Made by a program: the position numbers and the translations under genes. A stretch of DNA of 64,000 nucleotides. It comes from Bacteroidia bacterium (GTDB taxonomy: Bacteria > Bacteroidota > Bacteroidia > B-17B0 > Aurantibacillaceae). The notes beneath the pieces were generated by a model, which was not told the DNA's origin, searched no databases, and saw only the letters and a list, made by a program, of their open reading frames with translations. Location: contig JALHPG010000002.1 in assembly GCA_022842625.1 (NCBI GenBank), positions 1-64,000 on the forward strand. Direction: 5' to 3'. Below, piece after piece: positions 2,696 through 12,021 of the stretch (its first letter is position 1; each line of letters starts with the position of its first letter).

Positions 2696-3994
2696 TTAAA
2701 CCTTAGCGCTTAACTTCTCAAAACGTTTTGTAATCTCATCATTACATAAGTTATTGATACTTCCCTGATGCGTATGTTTGATATCGCCATTAAATTCAAA
2801 TGTATTGCTTGTAATGCCAGCGCCAACTTTTTGATAAGCGTCTCTAAACGACATTCCATCAAGCACCAATTGATTAACGGCTTCAACACTAAAAATAAAT
2901 TTATATTTCTCGTCGTTAATTGCAGTTTTATTAATTTTAATTTCTTCCAACATTTTTACAGTAGCCTTTAAACATGCTTGAATTTCTTTAAAAGCAGGGA
3001 ACAAAATTTCTTTTGTTAACTGCAGATCTCTGTGATAACCCGATGGCAAATTATTTATCAAAAGCGTTAGTTCATTTGGCAAAGCTTGTAATCTATTACA
3101 TTTAGCTCTAACCAATTCAAACACATCCGGATTTTTTTTGTGCGGCATAATACTACTGCCTGTTGTTAACGAATCAGGAAAAGAAATGAATCCAAAGTTT
3201 TGCGAATTATACAAACAAATGTCCATAGCCATTTTTGAAAGCGTTCCTGCAAGAGTGGCTATGGCCATTGATGTGGTCTTCTCAGATTTCCCTCTTGTCA
3301 TTTGAGCATACACCACATTGTAATTCATTCCGTCGAATTTCAATAATTCTGTTGTTATACTTCTATCAATTGGCAATGAACTTCCGTAACCGGCACCTGA
3401 ACCTAAAGGGTTTTTATTAGCAATGTTATATGCAGCAATTATCATCTCCATATCATCACACAAACTCTCGGCATAAGCACCAAACCATAAACCAAATGAA
3501 GATGGCATTGCGGCCTGCAGGTGCGTGTAACCGGGAATCAAAACGGTTTTATGTTCTTCGCTTTTACTGATCAATAACCTAAATAATTCATTAACTAATG
3601 AAATAGTTTTCTTTATTTCACTTACAGTATATAATTTAATATCAGTTAACACCTGGTCATTTCTAGAACGAGCAGTATGAATTTTTTTTCCAACATCGCC
3701 CAATTTTCTTGTAAGCAGAATTTCTACTTGTGAATGAACGTCCTCTACTCCATCTTCAATTACAAATTCATTATTTTTAATTGCAATTAAAATTGCATTC
3801 AGTTCTGCTTTTAAAAACGAATATTCTTCAAAGGTTATCAATCCAACCTTTGCAAGCATTTCTGCGTGAGCGATAGAACCTAATACATCAAACTCTGCCA
3901 ATTCAATATCTAACAATTTATCGTTACCGGCTGTAAATTCTAATAACCAATGCGGCGTAACGTTATTTTCTTTTTCCCAAAGTTTTGTTTTCAT
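2696..3994 (-). CDS. argH: Argininosuccinate lyase
   Basis: ArgH splits argininosuccinate into arginine and fumarate, the last step of arginine synthesis, in the cytoplasm. The 432-residue product carries HTARSRNDQV, the IPGYTHLQ histidine motif, and the fumarase/aspartase superfamily signature GSSIMPHKKNPD containing the catalytic serine. Length is close to the usual 430-470 residues. It is the last gene of the minus-strand arginine operon, with one base between the argE stop and its ATG. The repeat block lies downstream. Nothing is missing. Confidence 0.95.
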   Translation of the reverse strand: MKTKLWEKENNVTPHWLLEFTAGNDKLLDIELAEFDVLGSIAHAEMLAKVGLITFEEYSFLKAELNAILIAIKNNEFVIEDGVEDVHSQVEILLTRKLGDVGKKIHTARSRNDQVLTDIKLYTVSEIKKTISLVNELFRLLISKSEEHKTVLIPGYTHLQAAMPSSFGLWFGAYAESLCDDMEMIIAAYNIANKNPLGSGAGYGSSLPIDRSITTELLKFDGMNYNVVYAQMTRGKSEKTTSMAIATLAGTLSKMAMDICLYNSQNFGFISFPDSLTTGSSIMPHKKNPDVFELVRAKCNRLQALPNELTLLINNLPSGYHRDLQLTKEILFPAFKEIQACLKATVKMLEEIKINKTAINDEKYKFIFSVEAVNQLVLDGMSFRDAYQKVGAGITSNTFEFNGDIKHTHQGSINNLCNDEITKRFEKLSAKV

Positions 3995-3995
3995 G

Positions 3996-5084
3996 TTAAT
4001 TTAATTTTTTTAGAATAGCTATATAAATATCAATTGCTTCTTCTATTTCGTTTATGTAAATAAATTCGTTGGCGCTGTGCGATCTTGCAGAATCCCCCGG
4101 ACCCATTTTTAGAGAAGGCCAAGGCATCAATGCCTGGTCACTGGTTGTTGGCGATCCATAAGTTGTTCTGTTTAATTTTAGGCCCTCCATTACAAAGGGA
4201 TGATCTTTCGAAATGGAAGAAGGCTGCAATCGAAAAGAGCGCGGTGTAATTTCACAATCAACATACTGTTTAATAATTTCAAGAACTTCTTCATTAGTAT
4301 AAGCATCGGTTGTTCTAACATCCACTGTAAATTCGCACAAAGCAGGAACCACGTTGTGTTGCTCACCTGCTTTAATTACTGTTACACTCATTTTTATTTC
4401 TCCTAGTGCTTCAGATTTTTTTGGGAACTTAAATGTGTTAAACCAATTTATATAGTTAAGAGACTTGTAAATTGCATTCTCGCCTTCTTCTCTGGCAGCA
4501 TGCCCTGCCTTACCAAACACCTTACAATCTAAAACCATTAAACCTTTTTCGGCAATGGCCATTTGCATTTGTGTTGGTTCACCAACAATGGCAAAATCTA
4601 TCTTTGTTAATTCATTGAGTATACAAGCTACCCCATTTTTTCCGGATATTTCTTCTTCAGCTGTAGCAGCAAAAATAAAATTATACTTTAGGTTGTGTTT
4701 ATCATAAAAGTAAATAAAGGTTGCGAGTAAGGCCATTAAAGGTCCGCCGGCATCGTTACTTCCTAAACCAAATAATTTTCCGCTTTCTACAAATGCGTTA
4801 AAAGGATCGTTTGTATACGCGGGATTTGGTTTAACTGTATCGTGATGAGAGTTCAATAAAATTGTTGGTTTTGCCGGATCGAAATACTTATTTGCACACC
4901 AAACATTATTTAATTTTTTATTTGTTGCAATTCCTTTTTCCTTTAAAAAAGAGTCAATGAGTGTGCACGTCGCATTTTCTTCTTTACTGAATGAAGGTGT
5001 TTGAATTAATTTTTTTAGCAAGTCTACAACCTCCACTTTCAGAACTGATACACTATTTTCAATTATATAATCTTGTTCCTTCAT
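3996..5084 (-). CDS. argE: M20 family N-acyl-ornithine/citrulline deacylase
   Basis: This metal-dependent amidohydrolase should remove the acyl group from N-acylcitrulline (or N-acylornithine). The M20 motifs are all present: SHHDTV, a GLGSNDAGG metal-ligand segment, ATAEEEISG with the catalytic Glu pair, VGEPT, and a late HSANEF histidine. It is 362 residues, normal for the family. Because the operon carries an N-acylornithine carbamoyltransferase, the natural substrate is probably N-acyl-citrulline rather than N-acetylornithine; that is inference from context. The ATG at 5084 lies inside the end of argB (26-base overlap), so translation of the two is probably coupled. Confidence 0.85.
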   Translation of the reverse strand: MKEQDYIIENSVSVLKVEVVDLLKKLIQTPSFSKEENATCTLIDSFLKEKGIATNKKLNNVWCANKYFDPAKPTILLNSHHDTVKPNPAYTNDPFNAFVESGKLFGLGSNDAGGPLMALLATFIYFYDKHNLKYNFIFAATAEEEISGKNGVACILNELTKIDFAIVGEPTQMQMAIAEKGLMVLDCKVFGKAGHAAREEGENAIYKSLNYINWFNTFKFPKKSEALGEIKMSVTVIKAGEQHNVVPALCEFTVDVRTTDAYTNEEVLEIIKQYVDCEITPRSFRLQPSSISKDHPFVMEGLKLNRTTYGSPTTSDQALMPWPSLKMGPGDSARSHSANEFIYINEIEEAIDIYIAILKKLN

Positions 5085-5847
5085 AATTATCTTTTTTTAC
5101 TAATTGTAATAATTTTTCTGCTTTACCAATTTGTACAGAGCCTACGCCTTTTTTAAGTGCAAGAAAAGCATTATCCATTTTTGGGAGCATTCCTGTATTA
5201 ATAACCGAATTTTCTTTCAAATGAATATAGTCTGAATTTGAAATGCTTTTTATCACGCTACTTTCATCATCTACATTTTGCAAGACGCCATTTTTTTCAA
5301 AACAATAAACTAATCGCACATTATAAGTAGCGCTTAAGGCAATTGCTAATTCAGAAGCAATGGTATCGGCGTTTGTGTTTTATAATTGTCCGACACCATC
5401 ATGAGTGATCGCGGAAAAAACAGGCACTATGTTATTTTCTAAACATGAAATTATAAATGAAGTGTTCACTTTTTCAACATCGCCAACAAAACCGTAATCA
5501 ATCGTTTCCACTTTTCTTTTACTTGCCTGTATACAATTTGCATCTGCACCTGATAAACCTATGGCATTGCAGTTTAAGCCTTGAAGCTGAGCAACAATGT
5601 TTTTATTAATATATCCCGCATACACCATCGTCACAATTTTTAAAGTCTCTGCATCTGTGATCCGTCTGCCATCGATCATATTTACAGCTACATTTAATTG
5701 GTCTTGTAATTGGTTAGCCAATTTACCTCCACCGTGAACTAAAATTTTGTGTCCTTCTAATAAATTAAATTCTTTCAAAAAAGCCGACAAGGAATTTTCA
5801 TCATCAATCACGTTGCCGCCAATTTTTACTACCCTTAACTGTTGCAT
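5059..5847 (-). pseudogene. argB: N-acylglutamate kinase interrupted by one in-frame stop
   Basis: ArgB phosphorylates N-acylglutamate in arginine synthesis. The frame codes for a normal kinase of about 262 residues. The N-part has VVKIGGNV, LVHGGGK and GLSGADAN. The C-part begins NTNADTIASELA, the expected nucleotide-binding segment. A TAA codon at 5380-5382 splits it after residue 155, where related proteins read GQLLNTNAD; here it is GQL-stop-NTNAD. The two halves are in the same frame, with no insertion or deletion. A single T-to-A change (TTA to TAA) would explain it. The start at 5847 overlaps the argF' end by 13 bases and the end overlaps argE. It could be a true nonsense mutation, a sequencing error, or a stop that is read through. 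Confidence 0.85.
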
Positions 5848-6842
5848 AATTCTGCCTCGTTTGATGTAATAGTAAATTTTTCTTCTATCTTATAATTTGT
5901 CTCCAGCATTTGTTTTAACACTGCTTGCGCAGCAAACACCCTGTTCTCGGCTTGTTTCAATATTAATGATCTGTTATTGTCCAATAAACTATCGATCACT
6001 TCAACATTTCTTCTTACCGGTAAACAGTGCATCAATTGCGCATGGTTGGTTAAACTCATTTTGTTTTCATTTAATAACCAATTATCATTTACCTCCGGCA
6101 TTGTGCCGTAGTCAATAAAAGAAGACCAGTTTTTTACATAAACAAAATCAGCATCCAGCAATGCTTCATCTTGATTATTTGTTATTGTAACGTTAGAAGT
6201 AAAATCATCACACAAGTCATACCCTTTTGGATGAGCAATTACAAAATCAACATCTCTGGTTTTAACCCATTCGCAGAATGAATTAGCAACCGCTTGTGGC
6301 AGTGGCTTAATATGGGGCGCCCAGGTTAAAACAACTTTAGGTTTTCTATTTGTAGGTTTATTTTCTTCGATAGTCATCATATCCGCCAAACTTTGCAATG
6401 GGTGCAGGGTTGCAGACTCCAGACTAATAACAGGTTTATTACAATATTTCATAAACTGTAATAATATTTTCTCACTGTAATCTTCCTGCCTGTTCTTTAA
6501 CGAAGGAAAACATCTGATAGCAATTATATCACAATAAGTTCCCATAACGGCAGCCGCATCTTTAATGTGCTCAACCGTATTGCCATTCATTACTGCGCCA
6601 TCATTGTATTCCAAAGCCCAGCCTTCCTGATTAAAATTCATCACAACGGTATTCATGCCTAAATTTTGAGCGGCTTTTTGTGTGCTTAAACGTGTTCTTA
6701 AACTTGGGTTCATAAATATTATACCAAGTGTTTTATTTTTACCTAAATGAGAAAACCCAAAGGGATCCTTTTTTAAATTCAATGCCTCAGTAATTAGATC
6801 CTCGGCATTTTTAATATCGTTTATAGTTGTAAAGTATTTCAT
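5835..6842 (-). CDS. argF': N-acyl (probably succinyl) ornithine carbamoyltransferase
   Basis: The enzyme transfers the carbamoyl group from carbamoyl phosphate to an acylated ornithine. Carbamoyl-phosphate motifs are visible: SLRTR at residues 47-51, HPLQSLADM, and HCLPVRR near the C-end. The 335 residues align well, as I recall it, with the Bacteroides fragilis N-succinylornithine carbamoyltransferase, including MGxYCDII and the VVLTWAPHIKPLPQAV stretch. Residue 90 is Val (NGNTVEH). In the characterised enzymes this position is Pro for succinylornithine and Glu for acetylornithine, and Val in place of Glu converts the acetyl enzyme to a succinyl enzyme. The succinyl substrate is therefore favoured by inference. 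There are four bases between argD and this gene; its end overlaps argB. Confidence 0.9.
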   Translation of the reverse strand: MKYFTTINDIKNAEDLITEALNLKKDPFGFSHLGKNKTLGIIFMNPSLRTRLSTQKAAQNLGMNTVVMNFNQEGWALEYNDGAVMNGNTVEHIKDAAAVMGTYCDIIAIRCFPSLKNRQEDYSEKILLQFMKYCNKPVISLESATLHPLQSLADMMTIEENKPTNRKPKVVLTWAPHIKPLPQAVANSFCEWVKTRDVDFVIAHPKGYDLCDDFTSNVTITNNQDEALLDADFVYVKNWSSFIDYGTMPEVNDNWLLNENKMSLTNHAQLMHCLPVRRNVEVIDSLLDNNRSLILKQAENRVFAAQAVLKQMLETNYKIEEKFTITSNEAELCNS

Positions 6843-6846
6843 GGTA

Positions 6847-7989
6847 TTAATTTGCTATTAATTGTTCTTGTAAAATTTTATTCAATGCATTCAAAAATAA
6901 TTTTGCTTCATTCATTCCTATATTTAATGGCGGCAATAAACGAATGGTGTTTTTCCCGGAAGAAAAGCCGGTAAATATTTTTTCATCCTGCAATAATTTT
7001 TTTCGGATAAGCGTAGCATCGCCCGCGGTTTCAATCCCGATCATTAACCCCAAACCACGAACATTTTTTACACCATCCATTTTTGAAACTTCACTTAGTA
7101 TAAAATTTCCAATTTGAAGTGCGTTAGAAATTAAGTTTTCACTTTCAATAACTTCTAAAACAGAAAGCGAGGCCGCGCATGCCAAATAATTACCGCCAAA
7201 AGTTGTACCTAGCATGCCATGTTTTGCTTTTATATCCGGATGGATCAAAACACCCGCTACCGGAAATCCATTGCCCATGCCTTTTGCGGTTGTAATAATA
7301 TGAGGTTTAATACCGGAATATTGATGAGCAAAAAATTTGCCGCTTCTTCCGTATCCGGATTGTATTTCATCTAAAATTAAAACAACGCCCAATTTATTAC
7401 ATTCACTTTCTATTGTTTTTAGAAATTCATTGGAAGGAACATTGATGCCGCCAACGCCTTGTATACCTTCAATAATAACTGCACAAACAGTTTCGTTTAT
7501 TGCGTTTTTAAAAGCAGCTTCATCATTCATTGGCAAAAATATAACCTCATGATCTTTATTGATATTTGCAGATAACTTCGCGTCATCTGTCGCTCCAAGA
7601 GAAAGAGAGGTTCTTCCATGAAAAGAATCTGTAAAGGCAATCACCCTTTTCCTTCCATTATGAAAGGAGGCCAGTTTTAATGCGTTCTCATTTGCCTCTG
7701 TGCCTGAATTACACAAAAACAAATTGTAGTCAGTGTAACCACTTAGTTTTCCTAATTGTTCGGCCAATAAATTTTGCAATGGCATTTTTACAGCGTTCGA
7801 ATAAAATGCAATTTGGTTTAATTGTTCGGTTAGTTTTTTTACATAATGCGGATGCGAGTGTCCGATCGAGATCACGGCATGGCCTCCGTAAAGATCTAAA
7901 TACTTAATACCTTTCTCATCCCAAATAAAAGCGCCTTCGGCTTTAACAGGAGTAATATCAAATAATGGGTAAACGTCGAATAAATTCAT
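6847..7989 (-). CDS. argD: N-acyl-ornithine aminotransferase
   Basis: This PLP-dependent class III aminotransferase interconverts N-acylglutamate semialdehyde and N-acylornithine. The 380-residue chain shows the PLP-phosphate segment CNSGTEANENALKLA, LILDEIQSGYGRSGKFFA with the cofactor Asp, and the lysine in TTAKGMGNGFPVAGV that forms the Schiff base. Length is typical. It follows argC by ten bases in the operon. If the carbamoyltransferase uses the succinyl form, this enzyme would act on succinylated intermediates; the sequence alone does not decide that. Confidence 0.92.
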   Translation of the reverse strand: MNLFDVYPLFDITPVKAEGAFIWDEKGIKYLDLYGGHAVISIGHSHPHYVKKLTEQLNQIAFYSNAVKMPLQNLLAEQLGKLSGYTDYNLFLCNSGTEANENALKLASFHNGRKRVIAFTDSFHGRTSLSLGATDDAKLSANINKDHEVIFLPMNDEAAFKNAINETVCAVIIEGIQGVGGINVPSNEFLKTIESECNKLGVVLILDEIQSGYGRSGKFFAHQYSGIKPHIITTAKGMGNGFPVAGVLIHPDIKAKHGMLGTTFGGNYLACAASLSVLEVIESENLISNALQIGNFILSEVSKMDGVKNVRGLGLMIGIETAGDATLIRKKLLQDEKIFTGFSSGKNTIRLLPPLNIGMNEAKLFLNALNKILQEQLIAN

Positions 7990-7999
7990 TTTAATAAGT

Positions 8000-8983
8000 T
8001 TAATAGGTTATACATTTTAATTTTAATCCTTCTTGTTCGTTCAGACCAAACATGATGTTCATGTTCTGAACTGCTTGTCCGGCCGCACCTTTTAAGAGGT
8101 TATCGATAACACTTGTAATTAATACATGCTTGTTGTGTTTTTTGATATTCAATAAACACTTATTGGTATTAACTACCATTTTTAGATCGATGGTTTTATC
8201 AACCAAAAAAGTAAACGGATCGTTTGAATAAAAATCAGTAAAGAGCTCTTTAATTTCATTTTCAGAAAGATCACATTCCAAAACAGTTGTTGCTAAAATT
8301 CCTCTGGTAAAATTTCCTCTTTGAGGAATAAATAAAAATTCACTTGAAAAATTATTTTGTAATTGGATCAAACTTTCTTTGATCTCCGAATTATGAGGAT
8401 GCTCAAAAGGGTGGTAAACCGAAATGTTATTTTGTCTCCACGAAAAGTGCGTGGTGTCTGATGGCTTAACACCGGCGCCCGTTGAGCCCGTAACAGCACT
8501 TACATGTATTGTTCCGTTAAGCAGATTATTTTTTGCAAAGGGTAATAATGCTAACTGAATGGCAGTTGCATAACAACCCGGATTGGCAATGTAGTTGGCG
8601 TTTTTAATTTTTTCTTTATTCAACTCAGGTAAACCATAAACAAATTTCTTAGCATCAAGAGAGTTATTTTCCAATAACCTAAAGTCTCTGCTTAGATCAA
8701 TTATTTTGCAGTTTAGCAAATGTGGATTCTCTTTTAAATAATTTAAAGAGTCGCCATGTTGCAGACATAAAAAAATAACATCTGAATTTTTATTTGGACT
8801 ATCAGAAAATCTAAGATCAGTTTCTCCCAACAGATCAGTAAAAACTTCAGTCACCAATTTATTTTTTTGCGATTGACTAACAGCAGTAATCCCATCAACG
8901 TTTGGGTGATTCACTAATAATCTAAGTAACTCACCACCCGTGTACCCGGCTGCTCCAATTATTGAAACATTTAATTTTTTCAT
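8000..8983 (-). CDS. argC: N-acyl-gamma-glutamyl-phosphate reductase
   Basis: ArgC reduces N-acylglutamyl phosphate to the semialdehyde with NADPH. The N-terminal Rossmann motif SIIGAAGYTGGELLRLL, the catalytic cysteine in ANPGCYATA, and the HPHNSEI histidine segment are present in a 327-residue protein of normal size. Its ATG overlaps the argG stop by four bases (ATGA type), which implies translational coupling. It acts directly after argB, the gene with the internal stop. Confidence 0.95.
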   Translation of the reverse strand: MKKLNVSIIGAAGYTGGELLRLLVNHPNVDGITAVSQSQKNKLVTEVFTDLLGETDLRFSDSPNKNSDVIFLCLQHGDSLNYLKENPHLLNCKIIDLSRDFRLLENNSLDAKKFVYGLPELNKEKIKNANYIANPGCYATAIQLALLPFAKNNLLNGTIHVSAVTGSTGAGVKPSDTTHFSWRQNNISVYHPFEHPHNSEIKESLIQLQNNFSSEFLFIPQRGNFTRGILATTVLECDLSENEIKELFTDFYSNDPFTFLVDKTIDLKMVVNTNKCLLNIKKHNKHVLITSVIDNLLKGAAGQAVQNMNIMFGLNEQEGLKLKCITY

Positions 8984-10173
8984 TGTACGGAATTTATTTG
9001 GTGATAAATACTCATTTGATTGCTCATGATCTTTGTAAACCCTTTTACGTCTTGTCCGCTCCAGGTATTATTCATCTCGCCATAACTACCAAATTTATTG
9101 CTCATCAGGTCGTGCGATGATTCAATCCCTTCGATAGAAAAATTGTAAGCAGATAGTTTTACAAAAACTTTACCGGTAACATTTTTTTGGGTTGATTCAA
9201 AAAAGCATTCTAAGTCTCTCATGATAGGATCAAGAAACAATCCTTCATGCAGCCAATTACCGTACCACATAGCTTGTTGATCTTTAATGATCAATTGCAG
9301 TTTTGTGAGCGTATGTTTTTCTAAAGCGTGATGTGCTTTAATTGTAATAAGGGCTGCGGCAGCTTCAAATCCAACTCTGCCTTTAATACCGATGATCGTA
9401 TCGCCAACATGAATATCTCTGCCAATAGCAAAAGGCGAGGCTAATTTTTCTAAAGCTTGAATTGCTTTTGTAGGATGACCAAACAATTTACCATCAATGC
9501 CTTTTAATTCACCTTTCTCAAAATACAATTCAACATCTTTTAAAAGCGTTTCAGTCAATTGAGTTGGATAGGCTTGCGATGGTAAAGAAGAGTGTGAGGT
9601 TAAAGTTTCTTTACCGCCAACTGAAGTGCCCCATATACCTTTATTAATACTGTACTTTGCTTTTTCTGCATTTATCACTATGTCATTCTCTTTCAAATAA
9701 GCAATTTCTTCTTCTCTGGATAATTTATTATCTCTGATAGGTGTAATAATTTCGATGTTAGGAATTAAAATATTAAACACGGCATCAAATCTTACCTGAT
9801 CGTTACCGGCGCCTGTGCTGCCATGCGCAACATAATTGGCATTCATTTTTTTTGCATAATTAGCAATGGCAGTTGCCTGCGAAATTCTTTCGGCACTAAC
9901 CGAAAGTGGGTAGGTGTTATTTTTTAAAACATTACCATACACTAAATATTTTACTACACTGTTATAAAAGTTTTCTGTTTCGTTTAAACACACAAATGTT
10001 TCTACGCCCAGCAAAAGGGCCTTGCGTTCTATTAATTTAATTTCGCTTACACTAAAACCGCCTGTGTTAACGAGTACGGCATGAACAGTTAGGTTTAAGT
10101 TTTTAGATAAATAAATTGCGCAATACGAGGTGTCTAATCCCCCGCTAAATGCTAATACTACTGATTTTTTCAT
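8980..10173 (-). CDS. argG: Argininosuccinate synthase
   Basis: ArgG joins citrulline and aspartate using ATP. The product has the PP-loop VVLAFSGGLDTSYCA at its start, plus the HGSTGAGNDQVRFD and KEGIWGTS-like (NKGIWGTSVGG) regions of the family. At 397 residues it is near the usual 400. It overlaps the end of the GNAT gene upstream by 29 bases and argC downstream by four, so the first three genes of the operon are tightly packed. Confidence 0.93.
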   Translation of the reverse strand: MKKSVVLAFSGGLDTSYCAIYLSKNLNLTVHAVLVNTGGFSVSEIKLIERKALLLGVETFVCLNETENFYNSVVKYLVYGNVLKNNTYPLSVSAERISQATAIANYAKKMNANYVAHGSTGAGNDQVRFDAVFNILIPNIEIITPIRDNKLSREEEIAYLKENDIVINAEKAKYSINKGIWGTSVGGKETLTSHSSLPSQAYPTQLTETLLKDVELYFEKGELKGIDGKLFGHPTKAIQALEKLASPFAIGRDIHVGDTIIGIKGRVGFEAAAALITIKAHHALEKHTLTKLQLIIKDQQAMWYGNWLHEGLFLDPIMRDLECFFESTQKNVTGKVFVKLSAYNFSIEGIESSHDLMSNKFGSYGEMNNTWSGQDVKGFTKIMSNQMSIYHQINSVQ

Positions 10174-10831
10174 TTTCTTCGTTTTTAATTTTTGGTTGTT
10201 TTAAAAATATATTCTTTTTCATTTTAGTTATTCTTTCAAAAAGCGTTGAGTACTTTTTAAAATTCAAGAACTTATTGTCTTTATTCACATCCTTTTTTTC
10301 ATCAGGGTTATAAAGCATTGCCGTGCATAAACAATTCTTTCGGTCTTTGCTTTTTAGTATTTCAAAATTTACGCAACTGCGACAACCTTTCCAGAAGTCT
10401 TCGTCTTGTGTTAATTCTGAATATGTAACAGGTTCGTATCCGAGATCTGAATTAATTTTCATTACCGCTAAACCGGTTGTTAAGCCAAATATTTTGGCAT
10501 GAGGATATTTAGTTTTAGATAACTCAAATACCTTTTGTTTAATGGCTTTTGCCAAACCGCTCTTTCTAAATTCGGGCGCAACTATTAATCCGGAGTTGGC
10601 AACATAATTGCCGTGGCTCCAGGTTTCTATATAACAAAAACCTGCCCAATGCCCTTCTGGAGAAAAGGCAATTACTGCTTTACCCTCGAGCATTTTTTGC
10701 TCAATGTATTCCGGCGATCTTTTGGCGATGCCTGTTCCTCTTGCTTTTGCAGACGATTCCATTTCGGTGCAAATTGTGTTTGCATAATGCAAATGGCCAC
10801 TACTAGCCAAATGCACAGTGAATTTTTTCAT
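10145..10831 (-). CDS. GNAT acyltransferase heading the arginine operon
   Basis: This is a GNAT-fold acyltransferase, with the core around SGLIVAPEFRKSGLAKAIK (the acyl-CoA pyrophosphate loop in RKSGLA) and strands on either side. As first gene of an operon with no argA or argJ, it is the likely N-acylglutamate synthase that starts the pathway, using acetyl- or succinyl-CoA; that role is inference. After the GNAT core there is a cysteine cluster, CRSC followed 13 residues later by CLC (C-x2-C-x13-C-x-C), which looks like a metal site. The last 60 residues are Lys/Asn-rich and probably flexible. Length 228 residues. The ATG at 10831 is preceded by the long leader. The 3' end overlaps argG by 29 bases. 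Confidence 0.75.
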   Translation of the reverse strand: MKKFTVHLASSGHLHYANTICTEMESSAKARGTGIAKRSPEYIEQKMLEGKAVIAFSPEGHWAGFCYIETWSHGNYVANSGLIVAPEFRKSGLAKAIKQKVFELSKTKYPHAKIFGLTTGLAVMKINSDLGYEPVTYSELTQDEDFWKGCRSCVNFEILKSKDRKNCLCTAMLYNPDEKKDVNKDNKFLNFKKYSTLFERITKMKKNIFLKQPKIKNEENEKISSISI

Positions 10832-10864
10832 TGTGAAATAATTAAGAAATAATAAAATGACATC

Positions 10865-10883
10865 AATTCCCTACTAGAGAATT
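10865..10883. promoter_or_regulatory. 19-bp imperfect palindrome in arg leader
   Basis: AATTC-C-CTA-C-TAG-A-GAATT is a 19-base inverted repeat with one mismatched pair, about 34 bases upstream of the GNAT start. It could be an operator for a dimeric regulator or a small RNA hairpin. No regulator is assigned. Confidence 0.4.
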
Positions 10884-10902
10884 AACATGTTTGAATAAGA
10901 CG

Positions 10903-10916
10903 TAAGGTTAACCTTA
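10903..10916. promoter_or_regulatory. 14-bp perfect palindrome in arg leader
   Basis: TAAGGTTAACCTTA is a perfect 14-base palindrome 72 bases upstream of the GNAT ATG. As DNA it is a candidate operator; as RNA it can form a 5-bp stem with a TTAA loop. Confidence 0.4.
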
Positions 10917-10989
10917 AATCAACGTCGTAGAAAATAGATGGGTCGCACCGTAACGATTGTTGCGGCTAAATGGTTAATAAACAAAAACA

Positions 10990-11008
10990 CACTCTTGTTT
11001 AAAGAGTG
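10990..11008 (-). promoter_or_regulatory. Hairpin in arg leader
   Basis: CACTCTT (10990-10996) and AAGAGTG (11002-11008) form a 7-bp stem with loop GTTTA. GTTGC (10959-10963) and GCAAC (11008-11012) could close a larger structure around it. No T-run follows, so a simple terminator is unlikely. Confidence 0.45.
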
Positions 11009-11087
11009 CAACCGGCTAACGATTGAAACTATTGTAAGAGTTTTTGTTTTCACTTTTATTCGTGATTGTTTTTAAATTAATGAGCTG

Positions 11088-11120
11088 CAAATGTATAAAA
11101 ATATATTTATCATGAGCAAA
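11088..11120 (-). promoter_or_regulatory. Candidate Bacteroidota promoter of the arg operon
   Basis: On the minus strand TACATTTG (complement of 11088-11095) matches the Bacteroidota -7 consensus TAnnTTTG exactly. TTTG (complement of 11117-11120) matches the -33 element with 21 bases between. Transcription would start near 11080, which gives the roughly 250-nt leader. It lies back-to-back with the promoter region of the plus-strand permease. Confidence 0.5.
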
Positions 11121-11166
11121 AAAATATTTGTTTTACTTAAATCGGTTTAAATATCCGCCACAAGGC

Positions 11167-11197
11167 TTGATTTATTGGCAATTCCAATTTATATTTA
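11167..11197 (+). promoter_or_regulatory. Weak candidate promoter of the ABC permease
   Basis: TTG at 11167-11169 and TATATTTA at 11190-11197, separated by 20 bases, resemble the Bacteroidota -33/-7 elements with one mismatch. The start point would fall at or just before the ATG at 11203, implying an almost leaderless mRNA. Confidence 0.3.
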
Positions 11198-11202
11198 CAT
11201 AA

Positions 11203-12021
11203 ATGGAATACGAAATAAAACCTCAAACAAAATTGAGCCTTGGTTTAAAAGAACTTTGGGAATACCGCGAGTTGTTTTATTTTTTTACGCTGCGCGACAT
11301 AAAAGTAAAATACAAGCAAACGGTTTTAGGGTTTTTGTGGGCAGTATTGCAACCGCTGGTTATGGCATTATTGTTTTCTTTCTTTTTAGGAAAGGCAATT
11401 AGCAATTATACCGAGTTGCCTTTACCGTATGATGTTTTTGCCTTAAGTGGTTTAGTGCTTTGGGGAATATTTTCATCGGGTATTAATAATGCCGGTAATA
11501 GCATGGTTTCTAACGCCAACATAATTAAAAAAATATATTTCCCAAGATTAATAATTCCAATATCATCTGTATTAGTTGGGTTATTTGATTTTTTAATGGC
11601 GTTTGTGGTTTTTATAATTTATTGTTTGTTTCATAACATATCATTTTCGTTAAGCGCGTTATGGTGTTTTCCATTAGCAGTTATACTTGCCTGCATGGCC
11701 ACATTTGGTTCGGGCACTTTACTTGCCGCGCTAAATGTAAAATACCGCGACTTCAGATACATTATTCCTTTTTTGATCCAGTTTTTATTATTTGTTACTC
11801 CGGTAATTTATCCAACAACCATTACTGATAATAAATACCTAAAAATTTTATTATCGTTAAATCCAATGAGTGCGCCTTTGGATATTTTTAGAGCTGGTAT
11901 AACCAACAGTGTTATTAATTGGGAAGCAGATTTAGTGAGCATAGCATCATCTGTAATTATATTTATTCTTGGCTTACTGTACTTTAAAAAAACAGAAGCT
12001 TACTTTGCAGATCTAGCTTAG
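11203..12021 (+). CDS. ABC-2 type polysaccharide export permease (Wzm/TagG-like)
   Basis: The 272-residue protein has the family's N-terminal amphipathic segment YFFTLRDIKVKYKQTVLGF, followed by about six membrane segments, and matches permeases that export O-antigen, teichoic acid or other polysaccharides. In that family the ATPase gene (Wzt/TagH) normally follows at once. Here the next gene is a small exported protein, and no ATPase is found in the window. The partner must be encoded elsewhere, or the transporter is non-functional. The ATG at 11203 is chosen because it starts directly ahead of the conserved N-terminus. The gene is divergent from the arginine operon. Confidence 0.85.
   Translation: MEYEIKPQTKLSLGLKELWEYRELFYFFTLRDIKVKYKQTVLGFLWAVLQPLVMALLFSFFLGKAISNYTELPLPYDVFALSGLVLWGIFSSGINNAGNSMVSNANIIKKIYFPRLIIPISSVLVGLFDFLMAFVVFIIYCLFHNISFSLSALWCFPLAVILACMATFGSGTLLAALNVKYRDFRYIIPFLIQFLLFVTPVIYPTTITDNKYLKILLSLNPMSAPLDIFRAGITNSVINWEADLVSIASSVIIFILGLLYFKKTEAYFADLA

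Follow-up and report, generated by a model that had tools for sequence, protein, structure and literature searches.

In fungi, the arginine attenuator peptide is encoded by an upstream open reading frame (uORF) ahead of an arginine pathway gene and answers to arginine. That system is eukaryotic, and the leader discussed here is like it by description only. In the Bacteroidetes, the Bacteroid-trp RNA has been linked to trp leaders. It is likewise a Bacteroidetes leader element (RF01692; PMC2864571), and it has no match at gathering score in the window, by which we mean the whole stretch of 64,000 nucleotides that was analysed. The nearest worked example is the speF leader of Salmonella. When arginine is low, ribosomes pause at arginine codons of orf34, the frame for SpeFL; a hairpin then forms downstream of the stop codon and expression goes up (PMC6386406). 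The speF leader shares with ours a uORF with arginine codons and a hairpin just after the stop, but it differs in controlling ornithine decarboxylase and in having its sensing Arg pair early, at codons 12-13. The speF leader can do without the Arg that adjoins its stop (PMC6386406), and its peptide looks unrelated to ours by eye. The rbfL leader of Staphylococcus aureus resembles ours in using rare Arg codons (MVLKYRKR) and in sensing arginine shortage by ribosome pausing; it differs in having 8 residues, in occluding a downstream ribosome binding site, in repressing under starvation and in controlling the biofilm regulator rbf (PMC13009471). Within the Bacteroidota, two studies describe strong clues of leader-peptide attenuation before amino-acid operons in flavobacterial transcriptomes (PMC9723704) and short ORFs that resemble leader peptides within long 5' UTRs of Bacteroides thetaiotaomicron (PMC7366714). 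Our literature search, which lay outside subscription papers and supplements, found no description of such a peptide for arginine in Bacteroidota; flavobacterial cases may appear in the supplementary tables of PMC9723704.

The leader that we compare with these systems, 10832-11120, sits between a divergent gene (11203, plus strand), ABC-transporter-like on reading its protein, and an eight-gene arginine operon on the minus strand:

10145..10831, minus strand: GNAT-family acetyltransferase, the first structural gene (Pfam PF00583)
8980..10173, minus strand: argG, argininosuccinate synthase (profile matches)
8000..8983, minus strand: argC-like semialdehyde dehydrogenase (profile match; gene name inferred from context)
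6847..7989, minus strand: argD-like class-III aminotransferase (profile match; gene name inferred from context)
5835..6842, minus strand: N-acetylornithine carbamoyltransferase (NF003384, over cut-off)
5085..5847, minus strand: argB, acetylglutamate kinase, with an in-frame TAA at 5380-5382 (profile match)
3996..5084, minus strand: M20-family peptidase, an argE-like deacetylase by context (profile match)
2696..3994, minus strand: argH, argininosuccinate lyase (TIGR00838, over cut-off)

The GNAT and argG reading frames share 29 bases (10145-10173, minus strand). The TAA in argB is codon 156, in the middle of the gene, and the frame is open on either side of it, so the candidate explanations are a nonsense mutation of recent date, an error in sequencing and readthrough. 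Of 40 genomes from the window's genus, just 7 have a gene related to the GNAT gene, and the arginine operon may accordingly have a patchy distribution there.

The leader itself holds the following features, all on the minus strand:

11088..11120, minus strand: Bacteroidota-type promoter TTTG-N21-TACATTTG, an exact match; TACATTTG is also present in the relative L016
10919..11053, minus strand: upstream ORF of 44 codons with a GTG start, peptide MKTKTLTIVSIVSRLHSLNKSVFLFINHLAATIVTVRPIYFLRR (ending VTVRPIYFLRR, then stop); conserved in the clade, with an Arg-rich end found class-wide
10988..11010, minus strand: hairpin inside the uORF, followed by TTTTTGTTTA; a candidate pause or terminator-like hairpin (terminator scan)
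10922..10945, minus strand: last eight uORF codons, RPIYFLRR, with Arg(-8) CGA, Arg(-2) CGA and Arg(-1) CGT, then the stop TGA
10899..10926, minus strand: predicted hairpin P1 (GACGT...ACGTC), which runs over the stop codon and into the Arg codons that precede it; relatives have other stems in the same place
10860..10888, minus strand: predicted 13-bp hairpin H1, with U-rich CATTTTATTATTTC after it

An earlier note on this DNA had used a promoter match to place the transcription start about 250 nt before the first gene, and the match does lie about 250 nt before the GNAT start codon at 10831. We take TTTG-N21-TACATTTG to be the Bacteroidota promoter consensus; transcription is predicted to start near 11080 on the minus strand, a few nucleotides downstream of the match. 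In a set of 98 dereplicated leaders, the stretch upstream of the uORF is enriched in TAnnTTTG promoter boxes (29 leaders, against 8.8% of shuffles), and the stretch between the uORF and the GNAT gene is not (3 leaders, against 5.9%).

The same note saw an array of structural features in the leader. Its 7-bp hairpin is real (stem CACTCTT/AAGAGTG, 10990-11008). The GTTGC/GCAAC pair said to enclose it is present at 10959-10963 and 11008-11012, but it is broken in L016, which is 89% identical. The direct repeats are also there, TAACGATTG at 10951 and 11017 and CGGCTAA at 10963 and 11013, but at a frequency that chance would give: the nine repeated 7-mers of the leader are matched or passed by 159 of 500 dinucleotide shuffles, and its one repeated 9-mer is reached by 214 of 500. 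At 10904-10915 there is indeed the palindrome AAGGTTAACCTT; the leader's palindromes are weak against shuffles (k=10 reached by 55 of 500, k=12 by 69 of 500). Repeats and palindromes together are no more than shuffled sequence gives, and the operator array suggested by the note falls with them. Folded as a whole, the leader stands out only mildly: its z is -1.98, with 6 of 200 shuffles reaching it, and the opposite strand has z -1.23. What the note missed is the short minus-strand ORF at 10919-11053, within which its hairpin and repeats mostly fall.

This uORF begins soon after the predicted transcription start; its last codons are CGA CGT TGA, and 87 nt separate it from the GNAT ATG. L016 and L002, the nearest relatives, have this ORF in the same place, as do L003, L004, L005, L007, L018 and L019, with ends such as VRPIYFLRR, VRAIYSIRR, ARPVFYIRR and VRPVFCIRR. 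Of the equal-length uORF pairs in this clade, 17 of 18 have pN below pS; the exception is the closest pair, the window against L016 (pN/pS 1.07 on 8 differences). On average pN is also below pS in all three further groups tested (in Pedobacter, mean pS 0.468 and pN 0.150). The earlier note had named a lack of conservation in related genomes as the result that would speak against its leader, and the conserved uORF contradicts it. Pfam and NCBIfam hold no family that matches the peptide; the uORF provides a search pattern for a short gene missing from Pfam, NCBIfam and Rfam. At the level of sequence conservation we regard it as established that this stretch is the arginine operon's leader and codes for a putative regulatory leader peptide. 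A short ORF, with predicted translation, lies between the promoter and the first structural gene, as in leader-peptide attenuators.

To follow the uORF further, the stretch upstream of GNAT relatives was extracted at 222 loci, which include some duplicates between collections (L016/L043 and L017/L044, for example), with GNAT starts taken as the nearest ATG, some of them possibly wrong. Of the 222 loci, 128 have a uORF whose last 12 residues include 3 or more Arg, against 11 of 222 on the reverse strand, 15 of 214 in stretches further upstream and 4.8% of 4440 dinucleotide shuffles. We also took an even sample of the class, 133 GNAT genomes from 37 families with one locus per genome, having dropped one weak match (G083). 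In this sample such a uORF is found in 74 of 122 genomes without the repressor ArgR and in 0 of 11 with it, a contrast that is partly ancestry because the ArgR genomes fall in only four families. In those 11 genomes the ArgR gene lies directly upstream of the GNAT gene; when the stretch upstream of the ArgR gene is read instead, two of the 11 have 3 Arg at the end of a uORF, and both lack the end pattern described below. The scan finds no 3-Arg uORF at 48 of the 122 ArgR-less loci. Some of these have 2-Arg leaders (five Pedobacter-like rows in family f41), and others, such as families f16 and f22, have no candidate uORF at all. Where the same genomes have a second GNAT copy (four cases, L219-L222), that copy has no such uORF. 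The window's own genome has no match to the ArgR profile (PF01316), a profile that was positive in 9 of 14 known genomes used as a control, and we reject an ArgR operator as the control of this operon on that ground. No Arg-rich uORF was seen by eye in the stretch upstream of carA in the same genome. We believe that the arginine leader peptide recurs across Bacteroidia where ArgR is missing and that it is probably an arginine gauge. This would be a testable answer to how ArgR-less Bacteroidia could control arginine synthesis.

The choice of Arg codons argues for how such a gauge might work. The four Arg codons of the window's leader are CGA (2), CGG (1) and CGT (1), while CGA and CGG make up 7% and 2% of the 418 Arg codons in the window's ORFs. 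Eight of the nine clade members have CGA at codon -2. Mucilaginibacter leaders use CGA for 44% and CGG for 22% of 144 Arg codons, against 5% and 9% of 1961 in genes, and Pedobacter leaders use CGG for 35% of 75, against 8% of 1798. Gene counts here cover all ORFs of at least 200 codons at the same loci, unfiltered; within these loci, the Arg codons that are rare in genes are the ones favoured in leaders. The operon is an arg operon, and its leaders are enriched in codons for the amino acid that the pathway makes, as in leader-peptide attenuators. Because Arg codons are both enriched and rare, we favour ribosome-mediated attenuation in which arginine is sensed through slow decoding of Arg codons, and we put the probability of this reading at roughly 0.78. 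A ribosome would translate the 44-codon uORF from a transcript starting near 11080, and the hairpin inside the uORF may pause RNA polymerase so that the ribosome catches up. When arginine is short, charged Arg-tRNA would be low and the ribosome would pause at the terminal Arg codons; when arginine is plentiful it would reach the stop and leave. Its position would set the folding of P1 and H1 around and after the stop, and with it whether the operon is expressed. Candidate outputs are termination at H1 and its U-rich tail, Rho acting in the untranslated gap of roughly 85 nt, or initiation at the GNAT start. The element would thus stand in for ArgR, and it would add arginine to the amino acids sensed via leader peptides in Bacteroidota.

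The peptide end invites another reading, in which the nascent R-x-x-[FYW]-x-x-R-x is retained within the exit tunnel by free arginine, or by a metabolite related to it, and the ribosome stalls at or near the stop, so that sensing is by the peptide and not by tRNA charging. Ornithine with SpeFL and arginine with the fungal attenuator peptide are precedents. The pattern R-x-x-[FYW]-x-x-R-x-stop closes the uORF in 29 of the 133 genomes, across 10 families, against 3 of 6650 shuffles; as a mean of the 26 families with a 3-Arg uORF, Arg peaks at -8 (0.62) and -2 (0.68) and aromatics at -5 (0.38). The ends SRRRLFIPRV in Mucilaginibacter, SRQNFTPRI in Pedobacter and FRRPFMPRT in Daejeonella are examples. 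A fixed spacing of Arg -8, aromatic -5 and Arg -2 in 10 families is needless for a pure codon counter, and Pedobacter leaders hold only two Arg in their last 12 residues. But the strong preference for gene-rare Arg codons is better explained by codon sensing, and several lineages have runs of Arg without the spacing (SRRFRRPFRV; leaders of f12 and f54). In our opinion an arrest peptide is unlikely here. The spacing from the stop, together with a covarying hairpin described below, is unusual for a plain codon counter and makes a new arrest mechanism testable.

Returning to attenuation by slow decoding, we asked where structure lies in the 98 leaders when they are aligned on the uORF stop. Leaders entered this set for having 3 or more Arg or for a pattern resembling the counted one, which makes positional counts within it lean to the pattern; the even-sample test is free of this. 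Local structure is strongest at +10 to +50 (n=98, mean z -1.33, se 0.13), with mean z -0.67 (se 0.12) at -20 to +20 and -0.83 at +60 to +100 (n=64), and there is none at -40 to 0 (0.13). In the window, P1 corresponds to the structure around the stop and H1 to the strongest one after it. The hairpin inside the window's uORF is the only terminator-like site within 10800-11210 (0.1 expected). A like hairpin with a T-rich stretch occurs in 60 of 81 uORFs, those under 30 codons having been dropped from the 98, against 120 of 405 dinucleotide shuffles and 206 of 405 synonymous-codon shuffles. Terminator-like sites between the uORF stop and the GNAT gene occur in 13 of 98 leaders, only a mild excess over the 4.6% seen in shuffles. 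H1 and its U-rich tail are found in the window's clade, and H1 is not among the sites of the terminator scan.

Ribosome positions were then modelled by masked folding in the window and seven relatives, with edges set from an assumed toeprint distance of 16 nt. H1 is predicted in all four modelled ribosome states and P1 alone changes; in the window P1 forms only with the ribosome stalled at Arg(-8) or absent. In this model P1 is the only element whose dependence on ribosome position could be shown. The unpaired probability of the GNAT start is nearly constant across states (0.52-0.53 in the window), and no antiterminator was found in these eight leaders. We do not claim the classical terminator/antiterminator subtype because H1 forms in all four states. 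That folding showed no switch could be taken to favour a constitutive leader, in which a translated uORF only insulates or stabilises the mRNA and arginine is not sensed. Such a leader does not account for the enriched end-product codons, the choice of rare codons or the absence of the uORF from ArgR genomes, nor for the His and Trp leaders of the same genome, which match their operons; we consider it the least probable of the readings weighed here.

Of these two leaders, the one upstream of hisG (L223:908-979, G000 C36) encodes a His-rich peptide, MKTTMHLHHHHNLHQVGCVCIAF, after which comes a strong terminator-like hairpin with a T-run (L223 1007-1032). Upstream of trpE (L224, ORF 1307-1381, G000 C1) there is a Trp leader peptide, MKNINVNKMWWCFANDLVNS, followed by another strong terminator-like hairpin (L224 1408-1437). 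Rfam has no match on either leader. By the look of them, the genome appears to control his and trp through ordinary leader peptides. Like them, the arg leader has a short uORF with codons for the end product and then hairpins before the first gene. Unlike them, its uORF has 44 codons rather than 23 and 20, its Arg codons abut the stop, it has no GC-rich hairpin with a T-run, and no antiterminator was found. As a separate observation on amino-acid synthesis, dihydroxy-acid dehydratase (PF00920, ilvD) was not found in this genome, G000, which is 98% complete; a branched-chain amino acid auxotrophy is therefore possible.

Across families, the place of H1 can be taken by a hairpin of the form CC-UAYGY-GG, found by its loop pattern, with a fixed loop and a covarying stem in 11 families. 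The rows were selected by loop and not by pairing; 18 distinct rows of 19 were used, including L148 and L154, which have no 3-Arg uORF, and L025, where the motif is far from the uORF stop. In the stem 92.1% of cells are paired, against 65.4% in shuffles, 36 cells are changed on both sides, against 11.6, and the covariation score is 0.764, against 0.239; none of 500 shuffles reached any of these values. Counted by pairs, 6 show change on both sides, against 4.5, which 66 of 500 shuffles reached. Sliding the partner strand abolishes the covariation signal. The exact loop CCTAYGYGG occurs in 12 of 98 leaders and in 0.1% of shuffles. One may speculate, and we do so with considerable doubt, that class-wide arginine leader peptides replaced ArgR in most Bacteroidia and act at the extreme end of the uORF. 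There, R(-8)xx[FYW](-5)xxR(-2)x-stop and the covarying UAYGY hairpin, which would lie just in front of the terminating ribosome, would make up an arginine switch based on release or arrest, unlike terminator/antiterminator attenuation.

The hairpin after the uORF, which in several families covaries and keeps its loop unchanged, could also be a binding site, which would fit an arginine riboswitch or a protein-binding RNA or DNA element with the uORF incidental. We find this very improbable. The uORF is under protein-level constraint, Arg enrichment at the peptide end is far above shuffles, and the repeats and palindromes are at chance. No Rfam 15 family matches the window at gathering score, in agreement with the earlier note that no known riboswitch class fits; three sub-threshold matches (E 0.24, 1.8 and 3.7) are what chance gives, and a known riboswitch was rejected. 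In 20 related loci the only Rfam match is an SRP RNA elsewhere. A ligand-binding riboswitch is not supported either: conservation tracks the codons of the short peptide, and the structure shared across families sits around and after the stop codon. That the arg leader may respond to arginine, as the note guessed, does fit the evidence.

The window's own H1 is without the UAYGY loop. Alignment by MAFFT and consensus folding of the region from stop to GNAT gave -0.22 for the clade (9 sequences), -1.67 for Pedobacter (17) and 0.00 for Mucilaginibacter (24), a near absence of consensus structure because lengths and sequences diverge. The H1 of eight clade members could not be aligned by MAFFT (L019 was left out, being nearly equal to L018), but halves of the clade folded apart do give the H1 helix (-11.68 for 3 sequences, -7.60 for 6). 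Four loci of family f54 (L176, L183, L195 and L196) have another recurring hairpin, with loop AGGTGAGTCC, at the place of H1 after the stop.
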